NCBI RefSeq assembly: GCF_023195915.1
Contig: NZ_JALPRP010000001.1
Location: forward strand, 248,001-312,000
Length of the DNA stretch: 64,000 bases
Reading direction: 5' to 3'
DNA from: Methanoculleus sp. 7T
GTDB taxonomy: Archaea; Halobacteriota; Methanomicrobia; Methanomicrobiales; Methanoculleaceae
The position numbers were made by a program, and so were the translations under genes. The notes under the pieces are model-generated. The model was given only the letters and a program-made list of their open reading frames with translations. It made no database searches and was not told the DNA's origin. The stretch's first letter is position 1. Each line of letters begins with the position of its first letter. Shown here piece after piece: positions 2,003-46,805 of the stretch.

Positions 2003-2153
2003 GGGGCCGTAGCGGCGCCCGCCGACCGCCGATTTACTTTTTGGCCTGATTTGGAATCACTTGGTGCCGGCGTCCGGGGATGATCAGGATTATATGTTGT
2101 CGGAACTTCAGTCAGTGTGAGCGCCGGAGAGCGCGTATCAGAAGGTATGAGAT

Positions 2154-2345
2154 ATGGCAGAAAACAACAAAGATCCGGAGAAGCAGATTGGAGTGGTGGT
2201 CGATTGCATCTTGATCGACTACCGGGGCGATCCGGAGTCACGGGACCGGGTTGTACAGGCGGTCCTCGAATGGGCCGAAGACCACCCCGACGAGTGGGAC
2301 GAGCTGCAGGCACGGTGCCGGCAGCGCCATGAAGCGCTGGCGTAA
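2154..2345 (+). CDS. Small acidic protein of unknown function
   Basis: 63 aa, soluble, rich in Asp, Glu and Trp, with no Cys and no membrane segment. The reading MAENNKDPEKQIGVVVDCIL then a probable helical second half ending in RQRHEALA. It stands alone between two + strand genes. The balanced composition and lack of a better frame on either strand support it as real, but I recognise no family. Confidence 0.6.
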   Translation: MAENNKDPEKQIGVVVDCILIDYRGDPESRDRVVQAVLEWAEDHPDEWDELQARCRQRHEALA

Positions 2346-2547
2346 GCCCTTCCGATATTATCTCTTCTTTCGGACCGACGTCCCGGAGGACGCACGACCC
2401 GCATCTCTCCCCGCCTGCAGGCATCGGTGAGGAGGGGACATCCCCACAATCGGGCACCTGCCGCCGGCCTGCATAGGATTAAGTCTCTTGAGTTCTCCTG
2501 TAGGACCGATATTTCCGCTCCCGCTCTCGCCGGGTGAATGATGGACC

Positions 2548-3678
2548 ATGCAAAGCCGCCGCCTCCTGGCAATCATCGGTGTTCTCTTGGCTCTCCTCTG
2601 CGTCGCAGGAGTAGCAGCCGGTCAGATGACGGATACCCCAGGGTCGGAGGATACGGTCTCCATCCCTGCCGACGCACACCATCAGGTGACCGTCTTCTAC
2701 AGTTCCCACTGTTCGGCGTGCTCGGGGGTCATGCCGACCGTACGGGATATCGCCGCCGCCCACCCGGGCGTTCGGTTTGTCTTCTACGACACCGCTCCCG
2801 GCGGCGACGTATACCGGGTGTATTCCGCCTTCGATAAGGCGTACGGCTCCTCCAACCCTTCGGTCCCGGTGGTCTTTGCCGGGGATACCGTTGTGCTCAC
2901 CGGGGAAGCGGAGATTCAAGAAAACCTCGAGGAAGTGGTCGTCGCCCTTGAGTACGGCCTTATCCCGTCCGCCGACTACGAGGAGCGGTGGAGAGACGGC
3001 CGAGACGGCCCCGCGGCGCTCACGCTTCCCTTGGTGCTCACCGCCGGCCTCCTTGACGGCATCAACCCTTGTGCCTTCGCGGTGCTGGTCTTTCTCTTGA
3101 TCGGCGTCCTCGGTGCCGGCACAAGGGGCCGGGTCTTCGCCGCCGGGATTGCGTATTCGCTGGCGGTCTTCTCGGTCTACTTCCTCTCGGGGCTCGGGCT
3201 GTTTGCCGCAGTTCGGTCGCTTGAGGTCATGGCGCTCTTTTCGATCGCCGCAGGGTGCATCGCCATCGTTGCTGGAGTTCTGCAGGTCGCCTCGGCCTTT
3301 GTGCATGGCCTGCCGGTCACGCTCGCGATCCCCGAGAGGGCGAAGAAGCGCCTCGCCCCCCTGCTGCGGGAGGCAAGCGTGCCCGCCGCGTGCCTGCTCG
3401 GCGCACTCGCCGGGATCTTCGAACTCCCCTGCACTGGCGGGGTGTATCTTGCCGTTCTTGCCCTCCTCTCCGAGCATGCGACCGTTGCGGAGGGCACCCC
3501 GTACCTCCTCGCCTACAACGTCATGTTCGTCCTGCCGCTCCTTGCCATCACTGCAGGCATCGGCCTCGGCATCCCGCCCGAGCGGGTCGATACCTGGCGG
3601 CTCGGGCACCGGAGGGCGCTCAGGTTCGCCCTCGGGGTGTTTCTAATCGGGCTCGGCGTGGTGACGCTGGCAATCTGA
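2548..3678 (+). CDS. Thioredoxin-like domain fused to CcdA/DsbD-type electron-transfer membrane domain
   Basis: 376 aa. A signal-anchor (residues 1-27) precedes an extracytoplasmic thioredoxin-like domain with a CSAC active-site-like motif near residue 55. From about residue 160 come six or so membrane helices with two intramembrane cysteines in NPCAF and LPCTGG, the hallmark pair of CcdA and the DsbD membrane domain. It probably carries reducing equivalents from the cytoplasm to its own outward-facing thioredoxin-like domain. The domain order (Trx-like first, CcdA second) differs from DsbD, where the C-terminal domain is the thioredoxin. It is a single gene with no obvious operon partner. 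Confidence 0.8.
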   Translation: MQSRRLLAIIGVLLALLCVAGVAAGQMTDTPGSEDTVSIPADAHHQVTVFYSSHCSACSGVMPTVRDIAAAHPGVRFVFYDTAPGGDVYRVYSAFDKAYGSSNPSVPVVFAGDTVVLTGEAEIQENLEEVVVALEYGLIPSADYEERWRDGRDGPAALTLPLVLTAGLLDGINPCAFAVLVFLLIGVLGAGTRGRVFAAGIAYSLAVFSVYFLSGLGLFAAVRSLEVMALFSIAAGCIAIVAGVLQVASAFVHGLPVTLAIPERAKKRLAPLLREASVPAACLLGALAGIFELPCTGGVYLAVLALLSEHATVAEGTPYLLAYNVMFVLPLLAITAGIGLGIPPERVDTWRLGHRRALRFALGVFLIGLGVVTLAI

Positions 3679-3785
3679 AGCAAGGGCATGCCTAGGCCCC
3701 TCCCTCCGACGTACCCGGTGGAGAGTTACACATATATTGAGAGGGGGTTCCGGTATCCCTGCAACCATGGGTGGGTGAGGCGCAG

Positions 3786-4322
3786 ATGAGAGTCATCGTC
3801 GTGTATGCGAGCAGGTACGGGTCCACGAGGGAGATCGCGGAGTTCATCGCCGAGAAGATCCGGCAGCACGGAGCGCAGGCGGAGACCCGAAGTGTCGACG
3901 CGGCCCCGGATCCCGAGGACTACGACGCAGTCGTGATCGGGAGCGCCGTGTATATGGGGCACTGGATGAAGGAGGCAGTGGAGTTCGTGCGGCGGAACCG
4001 CACGGCCTTGGCCGGCCGCCCGGTGTGGCTGTTCAGCAGCGGCCCGCTCAAACTCGGGCCCGAGATCGCCTCGATGGACGATCCGAGACTGGAACCTAAA
4101 GAGATCGGCGAACTCCGGAAGATCGTTCATCCCATGGACCACCGGGTATTCTTCGGTGCGCTGGACCCGGAAAAGTTGGGAGGAAAGCACCGGACGATCC
4201 GAATGCTTCCCGCAGCCCGCGCGGCTCTTCCCGAGGGAGACTTCCGCAACTGGAACGATATCGAGGCTTGGGCGGGCGGCATCGCACGCGCGCTCGCGAC
4301 CCGGCCGGTCGCCTCTGCTTGA
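3786..4322 (+). CDS. Flavodoxin-domain protein, protoporphyrinogen oxidase HemG-like
   Basis: 178 aa. The N-terminus VIVVYASRYGSTREIAEFIA has the FMN phosphate-binding loop of long-chain flavodoxin-fold proteins, and VVIGSAVYMGHW is the second flavin-contacting region seen in the HemG/flavodoxin_5 group. An upstream in-frame ATG at 3771 exists; I prefer 3786 because GGTGAG lies just before it and the family begins there. Electron partner and substrate are not evident; the redox-rich surroundings (CcdA-like protein, rubredoxin) suggest electron transfer or oxidative-stress work. Confidence 0.8.
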   Translation: MRVIVVYASRYGSTREIAEFIAEKIRQHGAQAETRSVDAAPDPEDYDAVVIGSAVYMGHWMKEAVEFVRRNRTALAGRPVWLFSSGPLKLGPEIASMDDPRLEPKEIGELRKIVHPMDHRVFFGALDPEKLGGKHRTIRMLPAARAALPEGDFRNWNDIEAWAGGIARALATRPVASA

Positions 4323-4406
4323 AGGCGGGGCTTACATGGGCTGCGCTATCGGTGCGACAACCAAAACGGCATCTCCGATCCCACAGAAATGTTCGTTGAA
4401 AACAAG

Positions 4407-4491
4407 TGCGAGGGGAGCGATTTGAACGCTCGAACTCCTACGAGACAAGGCCCTCAACCTTGCGCCTTTGACCTGGCTTGGCAACCCTCGC
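4407..4491 (-). tRNA. tRNA-Leu (GAG)
   Basis: Read on the minus strand it gives a class II tRNA of 85 nt: acceptor stem GCGAGGG pairs with CCCUCGC, discriminator A, anticodon stem CAAGG/CCUUG around loop UUGAGGG (anticodon GAG), a long variable arm and the T-loop UUCAAAU. No CCA is encoded. No intron. Confidence 0.93.
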
Positions 4492-4703
4492 CCGGGGGAA
4501 GAACGTGATATTCGCGGAACGGAGATGGAGAACGCGCTGATTGCGCTTTCGCGCCCCGCTCACCTTATTTAATCTGTTGTCATACATGAAATACCTTTGT
4601 GCGGGGCTGTACCGGGCTCTCGAGAGGCTCCTCCGGCTCTTCCCCTGACACGAGATGAAGGGGGCCTCAGGTCGGCGACGCCTGTGCGTGCGAGGGAGGA
4701 AAG

Positions 4704-4758
4704 GGTTATATCGGTGCTCTCATCATTACCGCACAGAGTACCGGCGCGAGCGGGTACT
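4704..4758 (+). promoter_or_regulatory. Promoter and leader inverted repeat of the rubredoxin gene
   Basis: A TATA-like GGTTATATC (4704-4712) is followed, about where transcription would start, by the inverted repeat AGTACC-N10-GGTACT (4737-4758). It sits in the predicted 5' leader before the GAGGAG ribosome site. The repeat is perfect over 6 bp per arm; a regulatory role is inference. Confidence 0.4.
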
Positions 4759-4779
4759 TGTTTTCCTTGAGGAGATACC

Positions 4780-5130
4780 ATGGCAAAGAGCATGCAACCC
4801 TATCGGTGCGGAGTGTGCGGCTACATCTACGAACCCGAGCGGGGAGAGCCGGGGCAGAAGATCCCGCCCGGAACTTCCTTTGAAGAACTGCCGGAAGGCT
4901 ACACCTGCCCGGTCTGCGGCGCGGGGCCGAGGTCGTTCCTGCCCTTGGCCGAACGGACAGGCCGGTACCTCTGCGTGGCCTGCGGATACATCTACGACCC
5001 GGAGCGGGGAGAGCCCAAACGGGGCATACCCCCGGGGACGGCCTTTCGGGACCTCCCCGACAGTTATATATGTCCCGTCTGCGGCGTCTACGCCAAGGTC
5101 GGGAAACAGGCCTTTATCGCCATCGATTAA
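4780..5130 (+). CDS. Double rubredoxin
   Basis: 116 aa with two complete rubredoxin domains in tandem. Each has a CxxC near its start (CGVC, then CVAC) and a CPVCG near its end, so two Fe(Cys)4 sites are expected. Single-domain rubredoxins are about 52 aa; the two halves are clearly related ([19 protein letters not shown] vs [19 protein letters not shown]). The start has TTGAGGAG seven bases upstream. Likely a one- or two-electron carrier in oxidative-stress defence in a strict anaerobe. Confidence 0.93.
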
Positions 5131-21495: not shown

Positions 21496-21544
21496 GGTTG
21501 ACGATAAAAATCCTGTCAACCAAAAATTATCGGAAGGTTGACAA
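21496..21544 (-). promoter_or_regulatory. BirA operator and promoter of bioY
   Basis: A perfect inverted repeat TGTCAACC-N14-GGTTGACA occupies 21514-21543. This is the arrangement of BirA boxes (TTGTNAACC with 14-16 spacing). A third half-site, GGTTGAC at 21496-21502, lies between the TATA-like element (21503-21512) and the start. Bound BirA-biotinyl-AMP would block the promoter on both sides. The birA gene directly upstream encodes a BirA with a DNA-binding domain. Confidence 0.82.
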
Positions 21545-44366: not shown

Positions 44367-44855
44367 TTATCCCGCACCCTTCAGCACTGAGCCCTTGGCA
44401 CTGCTGTTTGCGCGGTAGATCTCTCTCCGGTGGAAGAGGTAGATCACCATGATGATGACCCCGCCGACAAGCGTCGCCGCTCCCCAGGTTAGCGGCTGCC
44501 AGGTGACGATGTCCCCAAGAAGCGTCTCCTTCTCGAAGTTGTCCCCGGCATGAATGCTCTGTGCATCATAAAACATCGCAACGGCGGAGAGGACAACGAG
44601 GATTGGGAGGAATTCCCGGCGGTAGGCGACCAGCCATGCCAGCGCCAGGAGGATCAGCAGCATGTTCTCTTGGTAGCCGCTCAGGTCTCCTCCCGCGGTA
44701 CCGGCCGGCTCCGGAGTGGGGGCCGCTCCCGGACCCCGTCCCTTCCACGCGTTCTCGTAACCCGCTTCCGCGGCTGTTTGCCGGGCCGGTCTGATGGCGT
44801 CCACGTTCGGGCACCACCCGAGTTTCTTCCTGAGATACTCAAGAAATACCGTCAT
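44367..44855 (-). CDS. DUF1673-like membrane protein with GWCP N-terminus, third of three
   Basis: 162 aa. N-terminus FLEYLRKKLGWCPNVDAIR matches its two upstream paralogs; then a proline/alanine linker and three membrane helices (LLILLALAWLVAY, FLPILVVLSAVAMFY, GVIIMVIYLF). Start overlaps the second paralog's stop by one base (TGATG). Function unknown. Confidence 0.8.
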   Translation of the reverse strand: MTVFLEYLRKKLGWCPNVDAIRPARQTAAEAGYENAWKGRGPGAAPTPEPAGTAGGDLSGYQENMLLILLALAWLVAYRREFLPILVVLSAVAMFYDAQSIHAGDNFEKETLLGDIVTWQPLTWGAATLVGGVIIMVIYLFHRREIYRANSSAKGSVLKGAG

Positions 44856-45553
44856 CAGAATCCCTCCAGCGCCCGGACTATTCGTTCGGGGGCATCGGTG
44901 TAGATCGCAGCGATTCTCTTCTCCGTGGTCGTTATCGTCAGGGTTCGCGGGTAACGGGTCCGCAGGTAGGTGCGGTAGAAGATCACCGGGAAGAAGATCG
45001 CGGCGGCAACGCCGAAGAGAAACCGCATGGAGGTTGGATTCTCAAATCCGACGTACACGCTGGCGACCGCCGATACGAGAAGCGCCGCCAGCGCTATCAC
45101 AAGGAGCCGGGAGGAGACAGGGGGTTTGTTCTCCTTCACTTCCGCCTTCACGACGGCATCCTTGGGGATGACGATTGACGGGAAGAGCGGCCGCCTGATG
45201 GTGATCGTGCCCAAGGCGACCTCGATACGAGCTCTTCGTACTGCCCCGTACAACTCCAGAGCGGAGTAAACCAGCATGATAGCCAGCAGAAGCAGGTTCC
45301 CTGCAGGAAACATAACGAAGAGGCATCCGATGAGAAGAGCGCCGGCAACAAGCAGAATGAAGTACGTTGCCGGAGTGCCGGTAGGGCCGTAGTCCACGAG
45401 TACACCCTCCACGACTTCCCGGCTGCCCCCTGCCGCAGTGCCGAGCCCAATCTCGCCGCCCGGCGCGGCATACCGCCGGCCGGCTCCGGCCATTGCCGCG
45501 TTCGGGCACCAGCCCACCCACCTCCGTATCGCCTCGGAGAACTTCATCGCCAT
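44855..45553 (-). CDS. DUF1673 family membrane protein with GWCP N-terminus, second of three
   Basis: 232 aa from the ATG after GGGGAGGAG. FSEAIRRWVGWCPNAAMA tag, then two pairs of membrane helices with a central soluble beta domain (GTITIRRPLFPSIVIPKD) resembling a small PH-like or DUF304 domain, and a C-terminal KRIAAIYTDAPERIVRALE region. A much longer open frame through the upstream gene is not coding. Overlaps the first paralog by 10 bases. Confidence 0.82.
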   Translation of the reverse strand: MAMKFSEAIRRWVGWCPNAAMAGAGRRYAAPGGEIGLGTAAGGSREVVEGVLVDYGPTGTPATYFILLVAGALLIGCLFVMFPAGNLLLLAIMLVYSALELYGAVRRARIEVALGTITIRRPLFPSIVIPKDAVVKAEVKENKPPVSSRLLVIALAALLVSAVASVYVGFENPTSMRFLFGVAAAIFFPVIFYRTYLRTRYPRTLTITTTEKRIAAIYTDAPERIVRALEGF

Positions 45554-46164
45554 AAGGACTCCTCCCCACCCCGCATCGCCGTATCCAGAGTATACATCGA
45601 CCCCTTCTCCGCGATCAGGATTGTGCAGCGCCGCCGCTCCCAGAGGATCGTGGTACCATACGTAACCCAGCCGATGAGGCTCAAGCCCAGCATGAACCCG
45701 AGGATCTGGCCGAACATGCCGTTCCGAACAAAGTACGCCATACAGACGGCAAGAAGAATGAGGGCTACCGGCCAGCTCAGGTCCCTTGCTATGCGCAGTC
45801 TCCGGCTCATGTTGGCCCTGATGAACTCGCCGGCGGCAATCCTTGCGTACTGCTTCCGGTAACCGAGCAGGAAGCCGAGGGCTCCTCCCGCCCCGATGGC
45901 AAGGCCCGTCCACACAGCCGGATACCCCAGCGTATCCTCGACCAGGAGAAAGAGTATCGCTGCCACCGCTGACGCGGCTGCCGCCGTGACCAGCAGCTGG
46001 TTGTGGTAGCGGTTCCACCACTTGGGTTCGGTCCGGAGGGTCCCGTCCCGCCCGCCCGGTGCCGCGGCCGTTCCCGACTGCACCGAGAACTCCGCCCTCA
46101 TCGACCACTTCATTGGGCACCACCCGAGGTAGGCCCGTATTGTCTCCATGAAAGATAGTGTCAT
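45544..46164 (-). CDS. DUF1673-like membrane protein with GWCP N-terminus, first of three
   Basis: 206 aa. FMETIRAYLGWCPMKWSM tag, then two pairs of membrane helices separated by a charged loop (GEFIRANMSRRLRIARDLS), and a tail ending RRRCTILIAEKGSMYTLD. Overlaps the regulator's stop (ATGA). Divergent from the other two beyond the tag. Confidence 0.8.
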   Translation of the reverse strand: MTLSFMETIRAYLGWCPMKWSMRAEFSVQSGTAAAPGGRDGTLRTEPKWWNRYHNQLLVTAAAASAVAAILFLLVEDTLGYPAVWTGLAIGAGGALGFLLGYRKQYARIAAGEFIRANMSRRLRIARDLSWPVALILLAVCMAYFVRNGMFGQILGFMLGLSLIGWVTYGTTILWERRRCTILIAEKGSMYTLDTAMRGGEESLWR

Positions 46165-46607
46165 ACGAGTTCCTTCAGTTTCGCAAAGAGCTCATCGGCC
46201 ATCCGGGTCGGGTCGTCGGTCTTCGCGAGCGCAATCCCCAGTTCGTCCGCATAGTCCCAGAGGAGCTCGATGCACCGGGCGTAGCGCGGGCATGCGCCGC
46301 AGTCGCCCTCATGCTCGTACCAGACCTGCACGCCGTGATTTGCCGATACGAAGACGATTGCGCCGGCATCGAACGGGACGGAGCGACCGAAGAGGACCCC
46401 TTTTTCTGCGTTCAGGCGCTCGACATCGATCTGGTTTGCCTGCGCCATCGCTCGAAGCGTCTCCTCGACCTTCTGGTCCATGGTGATGAGCGCCTTCGAG
46501 ACCGCCTGGCGGGATATGCGGAAGCGCTCCGCGATCTGGATGTTGGGGAGGCCGCTGCGGCGGAGTCTCCAGAACGCAAACTGCCTGTCGTTCAGGGGGA
46601 GATGCAT
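46161..46607 (-). CDS. HTH regulator of the GWCP membrane-protein operon
   Basis: 148 aa. N-terminal sigma-4-like HTH, PNIQIAERFRISRQAVSKAL, of the kind in archaeal Tfx-type proteins; then a sensor-size domain with HEGDCGACPRYARC (CxxC-x5-C), a possible metal site. Its ATG overlaps the downstream gene's frame chain, and a palindrome starts 2 bases above it with a TATA beyond, so it is the first gene of the operon and probably self-regulated. Confidence 0.82.
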   Translation of the reverse strand: MHLPLNDRQFAFWRLRRSGLPNIQIAERFRISRQAVSKALITMDQKVEETLRAMAQANQIDVERLNAEKGVLFGRSVPFDAGAIVFVSANHGVQVWYEHEGDCGACPRYARCIELLWDYADELGIALAKTDDPTRMADELFAKLKELV

Positions 46608-46608
46608 A

Positions 46609-46638
46609 TGTCAACAGTCAGAGGTTGACAATATAATT
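46609..46638 (-). promoter_or_regulatory. Operator and TATA box of the GWCP operon
   Basis: TGTCAAC-N8-GTTGACA (46609-46630) is a perfect palindrome between TATA (ATATAATT, 46631-46638) and the start codon at 46607. With only about 25 bases from TATA to ATG the mRNA is leaderless and the palindrome covers the start of transcription. The half-site equals that of the BirA box at 21514, but the spacing (8, not 14) argues for a different protein. Confidence 0.65.
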
Positions 46639-46805
46639 GTTTCGATTTCTCCCTCAAACCAACTCATGTGAGGCGTCCCACGGCTGGGCATCCCAGCCCG
46701 CACCCCCTCTTCCCGAAAAAACCGGCGCACGGCCGCCGGATGCGCATGCTCCACCCGGGAAAAGGATCAGAAAATTAATTCCCGCCGCCATCGGAACAGA
46801 CTCGT

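Follow-up and report, generated by a model that had tools for sequence, protein, structure and literature searches.

Why should three membrane proteins, encoded in a row behind a DNA-binding protein, begin with the same few residues? The question is raised by four genes on the minus strand of a 64,000-nucleotide stretch of the Methanoculleus sp. 7T genome, here called the window. A regulator gene comes first, genes 2, 3 and 4 follow, and each start overlaps the previous stop. The three membrane proteins share the start FxEx(I/L)Rx3GWCP, referred to below as the GWCP tag. The original prediction placed the regulator and all three membrane proteins in one operon, which the overlapping minus-strand genes uphold, and regarded the whole as an uncharacterised membrane system. 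It was right on this count as well: print offers a one-line note on DUF1673 (PF07895; arCOG06827, supercluster SC.00027) that records an 'MGWCP motif' and an expansion in Methanosarcina (PMC4158269, PMC4390880). The regulator, the operator and the second tag set described below were not found in print, in a search that covered little of the subscription literature.

The tag and the proteins that carry it

The regulator (148 amino acids; 46161..46607, minus strand) combines an N-terminal helix-turn-helix (HTH) with a C-terminal beta/alpha domain containing H-x3-C-x2-C-x5-C. An ATGA overlap joins its gene to gene 2 (45544..46164, minus), which encodes a DUF1673 membrane protein of 206 amino acids (PF07895, E=3.2e-10). 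The 230-residue product of gene 3 (44855..45547, minus; alternative start at 45553) has a PH-like fold split by two transmembrane (TM) hairpins, as judged from PF07895 (4.6e-8) and an AlphaFold model. A TGATG overlap leads into gene 4 (44367..44855, minus), whose product is a tagged membrane protein of 162 amino acids with two or three TM segments and belongs to a separate body cluster, C3. The N-termini of genes 2, 3 and 4 are SFMETIRAYLGWCP, KFSEAIRRWVGWCP and VFLEYLRKKLGWCP, respectively; the tags themselves are FMETIRAYLGWCP (46114..46152), FSEAIRRWVGWCP (45503..45541) and FLEYLRKKLGWCP (44808..44846), all on the minus strand.

How much of these proteins is DUF1673? Gene 2 (40.7 bits) and gene 3 (33.7) pass the PF07895 cut-off of 30.4 and so match the family as published. 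Gene 4 scores 20.6 bits, below the cut-off, and the match is to the tag only (residues 3-31); its body is unrelated to those of genes 2 and 3. Unlike the motif of the published description, the tag does not depend on a DUF1673 body. The gene 3 model (pLDDT 77) shows the seven-strand barrel and C-terminal helix of a PH domain, with strands at 44-53, 106-139 and 201-216 and the helix at 220-228, broken by TM stretches at 60-103 and 146-197; PH domains match it at Z 10-12, up to 11.9. Both the tag and the PH-like domain are predicted to face the cytosol. The earlier suggestion of a lipid anchor did not survive: the tag cysteine lies at about residue 14, no signal peptide or lipobox precedes it, and its predicted location is cytosolic, so that lipidation is unlikely. 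A metal or thiol role for this cysteine is possible.

Conservation is concentrated in the tag. Among 38 gene 3 homologues the only invariant columns are G12, W13, C14 and P15. No change of W, C or P occurs among 376 distinct tags, by construction since the search pattern required WCP, and G varies once; the tag-HMM search and the gene 3 alignment depend less on that pattern. The same tags favour E at -7, I/V/L at -5, R/K at -4 and L/M at -1. When the 120 genomes of the order were searched with the tag HMM (E<0.01), 141 matches were obtained in 44 genomes, every one no farther than 4.6 kb from a regulator gene; the regulator-less genomes among the 120 gave no match better than E=0.05.

What follows the tag is far less constant. 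Grouping the 252 unique tagged proteins by body gives 18 real clusters, nearly all with TM segments; as BLAST at 1e-6 set the boundaries, some clusters may be distantly related to one another. A nineteenth cluster (L168:5463-5858) was judged to be a chance GWCP inside another gene. The bodies include DUF1673, TM-interrupted PH domains, SdpI+DUF1648, DUF6159, Yip1 and a MurJ/Polysacc_synt-like flippase, and several have no match in a Pfam search. SdpI-family bodies make up cluster C4, with 12 loci (in L086, SdpI at 2.3e-15 and DUF1648 at 3.5e-13); the window operon itself has none. The predicted picture, in which membrane proteins keep the tag and diverge elsewhere, is supported.

Tags and bodies are also swapped. 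Within Methanoculleus, tag types and body types are mixed, and DNA comparisons place the exchange points at the GWCP codons. Between loci L071 and L070, for example, the body shows 100% identity throughout the part compared, which starts at GGCTGGTGCCCC, and the tags ahead of it are unrelated (45%). Because the Pfam profile includes the tag, unrelated tagged proteins score as DUF1673, among them a Yip1 protein (L142:4568-5296) and a flippase (L138:3330-4946), and DUF1673 annotations may lump unrelated bodies. DUF1673 was rejected as the unit of the system: 17 regulator-bearing genomes of the phylum lack it, and many of those examined tag other bodies.

Relatives of the regulator occur in 46 of the 120 genomes of the order. 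DUF1673 occurs in 36 of them, and all 36 have the regulator (Fisher p=1.6e-22), as do 54 of the 56 DUF1673 genomes of the phylum (p=1e-48). The 80 loci from named genomes come from Methanoculleus, Methanoregula, Methanolinea, Methanospirillum, Methanosarcina, ANME-2/3 and Methanoperedens. The system is not confined to Methanomicrobia, since the last three of these groups carry it too. The window does contain three tagged genes, but 'triplet' gives the number undue weight, as operons carry from 1 to about 12. Tagged genes follow the regulator in 75 of the 78 loci with enough downstream sequence, a total that includes an SWCP variant (L291) and a GWCP gene missed by the filter (L302); L286, L288 and L297 have a regulator with no tagged gene after it.

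Several loci deserve separate mention. At L286 (about 2141-4923), from ANME-2, inspection by eye finds, downstream of the regulator and operator, genes for an ABC ATPase, a secreted protein and a MacB-like permease in place of tagged ones. L302, a short contig assigned to Caldiserica bacterium UBA646, holds a full regulator-operator-GWCP unit; the bacterial assignment is probably a binning error. The regulator gene at L112 (about 2797-3184) is interrupted by a frame break or stop and its operator has decayed, yet a tag match still lies beside it; the system appears to be decaying in that genome (G021). Two other identities for the system were discarded: a virus- or plasmid-borne element, as viral contigs and plasmids held no relative, and an anti-phage defence system, for which PADLOC gave only CARF3 at 0.007, on the regulator HTH.

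The regulator and its operator

Between the TATA box and the start codon of the operon lies the palindrome TGTCAAC-N8-GTTGACA (46609..46630, unstranded), whose position and symmetry are kept in relatives. We aligned on the ATG 77 distinct promoters of relatives with the same regulator type, hereafter R1. GTCAAC-N8-GTTGAC is fixed at -22 to -3, with TATA at about -30 to -24 and a purine/A-rich BRE at about -35 to -33; the information content of these promoters marks the BRE/TATA element of the window at 46631..46642 (minus). Because the TATA box is so close to the ATG, the transcript is probably leaderless, and the palindrome would therefore cover the start region. The fixed TATA-operator-ATG spacing supports what the original prediction had said of a palindrome over a leaderless regulator start. 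This placement fits autorepression, which we consider likely on the strength of promoter architecture.

The operator is also specific. Its core occurs once in the 2.6-Mb home genome, where the reversed-pattern control gives none. The operator followed by NN and ATG has 53 matches in 386 genomes, almost all at regulator starts, against none for the reversed control. Three matches lie elsewhere, in G400, G384 and G327, and the latter two look like chance. The match in G400 precedes a solitary GWCP-tagged gene that is remote from every regulator and has its own TATA box and operator; tag and operator therefore travel together. At all 80 loci from named genomes the regulator has the inverted repeat upstream, displaced by a single base in L271 and L272. 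The window contains a second TGTCAAC / GTTGACA inverted pair, at 21514-21543, with a longer spacer (N16).

The HTH of the regulator resembles that of the Tfx / EnfR family, whose member EnfR binds a promoter pseudo-palindrome (PMC10570040). The sequence hints fall below the family cut-offs, with 13.4 against 60.25 bits for Tfx (TIGR00721) and 12.9 against 260 for EnfR (NF053597), and a search by sequence for solved relatives gave none that was convincing. EnfR (8hno) is the best structural match, to residues 1-46 only (Z 7.7, 1.7 A over 45 residues); the whole-chain TM-score is 0.34. Unlike that family, the regulator has a C-terminal H-C-C-C domain and other targets. This domain was left unmatched by the structural look-up, whose alignment reached the HTH only and so barely probed it. 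Its predicted metal or thiol site, H99-x3-C103-x2-C106-x5-C112 (46272..46313, minus), is conserved to at least 97% in 148 regulators.

Matched regulators, operators and tags

A paralogous regulator, R2, is 53-59% identical to R1. The recognition helix reads TRQGVS in R2 and SRQAVS in R1 (residues 32-38, SRQAVSK in the window, at 46494..46514, minus; TRQGVSQ in R2). R2 has its own operator, GTAAAT-N8-ATTTAC, at the same position in 12 R2 promoters, a pattern that on its own is unspecific in A+T-rich DNA. The genes downstream of it carry GLC[R/P]K in place of GWCP, or GVLCPK in L167, on DUF6159-like bodies. Some genomes have both R1 and R2 (L086, L088 and L094). The residues that distinguish them lie at 32, 35 and 38 of the recognition helix and at 84, 108, 115, 116, 141 and 144 of the C-terminal domain, including the R108E difference between the cysteines.

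A third, distant regulator type occurs in two genomes of another family. It has the same three-cysteine motif; one of the two regulators is damaged, and the intact copy (L161) has the operator GTAAAC-N8-GTTTAC. The regulator is followed by a PH-like membrane protein that starts FCRIPPDG or LCKIPPDG. The cysteine is kept in every tag version.

Regulator, operator and tag, as read from these sequences, change as one set. The proposal of a tag that targets the proteins or joins them can thereby be made more specific, since a change of regulator paralogue and operator brings a change of tag; docking on the regulator is the part that we infer. As few evolutionary events are involved, the co-variation favours a contact of the tag with the regulator without proving it: the change from R1 to R2 is essentially one duplication, and could reflect common operon descent and not contact.

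Do the operators point to genes outside the operon? Additional R1 operators in some Methanoregula-type genomes precede a gene for Yip1 and one for a secreted CARDB-like protein, a link that is weaker because the operator lies farther from the gene than in the main operon. R2 operators directly precede secreted S-layer-like genes with the usual TATA-operator-ATG spacing (L086:13152-14987, DUF3821-like; L105:1306; L109, L110, L111, L169 and L171). Automatic start calling can read the R2 operator as codons (MSIHLHM). Both groups point to the cell envelope.

A possible mechanism and its alternatives

What, then, might the tag do? In the model that we favour, the regulator would sit on the palindrome, which separates the TATA box from the leaderless start, and keep the operon repressed. 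Each membrane protein would present its N-terminal amphipathic helix and GWCP on the cytosolic side, as a docking site for the C-terminal H-C-C-C domain of the regulator; the bodies, being unrelated, would be interchangeable effectors. When a membrane protein senses an envelope insult or ligand, or when these proteins exceed need, the tag would draw the regulator to the membrane, and derepression of the operon would follow. The module as a whole would regulate itself and protect the cell envelope.

We offer this model tentatively, as the best explanation available though a little short of an even chance. It is suggested by operators fixed in 77 R1 and 12 R2 promoters, by the location of 141 of 141 tags near regulators and the operator of the lone G400 gene, and by the tag on unrelated bodies that include SdpI+DUF1648, a Bacillus immunity and receptor family. 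R2 has an operator and tag of its own, with diagnostic residues in both the helix and the C-terminal domain; the third regulator type has its own FCRIPPDG/LCKIPPDG start; and a cysteine is kept in every tag version, as are three cysteines and a histidine in the regulator. The extra operators before Yip1, CARDB-like secreted (R1) and S-layer-like secreted (R2) genes, and the precedent of SdpR/SdpI, argue in the same direction. Against it we count the many tagged proteins with no recognisable sensor part, the few regulators (L286, L288, L297) without a tagged gene behind them, the single duplication that underlies most of the co-variation, and the restriction of the third set to two genomes. Taken singly, an envelope role is slightly more likely than not, and contact between tag and regulator slightly less so than an even chance.

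The tag might instead be a sorting, insertion or assembly signal, bringing its carriers to a common membrane site or complex through another factor or through tag-tag contact, with a regulator that shares the operon and never touches the tag. A short N-terminal amphipathic helix with an invariant GWCP on unrelated membrane proteins does look like known sorting tags, and tag and operon are inherited together. PEP-CTERM/exosortase is a system of this kind, in which one short sorting tag on many unrelated proteins is co-inherited with its machinery. Here, however, the tag is N-terminal, no processing enzyme is seen, and the tag version is matched to a transcription regulator. A sorting signal would need a co-inherited recogniser, yet the regulator is the only constant neighbour; no tag occurs without a regulator in 120 genomes, and where one genome has both paralogues each goes with its own version of the tag. 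We therefore think this alternative unlikely, if still the strongest of those considered.

Less probable still is a regulator that senses redox state, a metal or an Fe-S cluster by itself, the GWCP cysteine being a parallel site with no contact between the two. The near-invariant H-C-C-C site, the cysteine in every tag version and the strictly anaerobic hosts all suit such a sensor, which nevertheless leaves unexplained both the shared tag on unrelated membrane proteins and the matching of tag and regulator versions. Finally, repeated gene conversion between tandem paralogues could keep the GWCP codons alike and use them as crossover points, the tag having little role at the protein level, as bodies identical in DNA up to those codons with unrelated tags beyond (L071 and L070) might suggest, but this is very improbable given that GWCP is maintained as protein through synonymous codon changes, across the phylum and in operons with a single tagged gene, that the helix pattern (E, I, R/K, L/M) persists although the tag DNA has diverged, and that the lone G400 gene retains GWCP.

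The proposed capture of an autorepressor by tagged membrane proteins has a bacterial counterpart. SdpI of Bacillus is both an immunity protein and a receptor that retains SdpR, an autorepressor, at the membrane (PMC1626106). Our proposal follows from the parts that the two systems share in outline: a small DNA-binding protein encoded together with a membrane protein and a promoter whose operator-like site is consistent with autoregulation. Some related operons, though not that of the window, also have tagged bodies of the SdpI/DUF1648 family. The differences are equally clear. SdpR belongs to the ArsR family, whereas the regulator here is Tfx-like; a single N-terminal tag is shared by many unrelated membrane proteins; and capture at the membrane is, for the archaeal system, a prediction.

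These findings turn DUF1673, an expanded archaeal family, into a testable signalling module that is widespread in methanogens and methane-oxidising archaea. The exact operator allows the regulon to be traced, and the two natural matched sets can be used for tests of specificity. A portable docking tag that wires any membrane protein acquiring it to the regulator as a sensor or effector, with parallel sets working in one cell without cross-talk, is possible, though we hold it somewhat more loosely than the contact itself. Methanogens may, moreover, possess an SdpI-like protection system. Should docking prove real, the tag would amount to a plug-in code that links unrelated membrane proteins to one gene switch.
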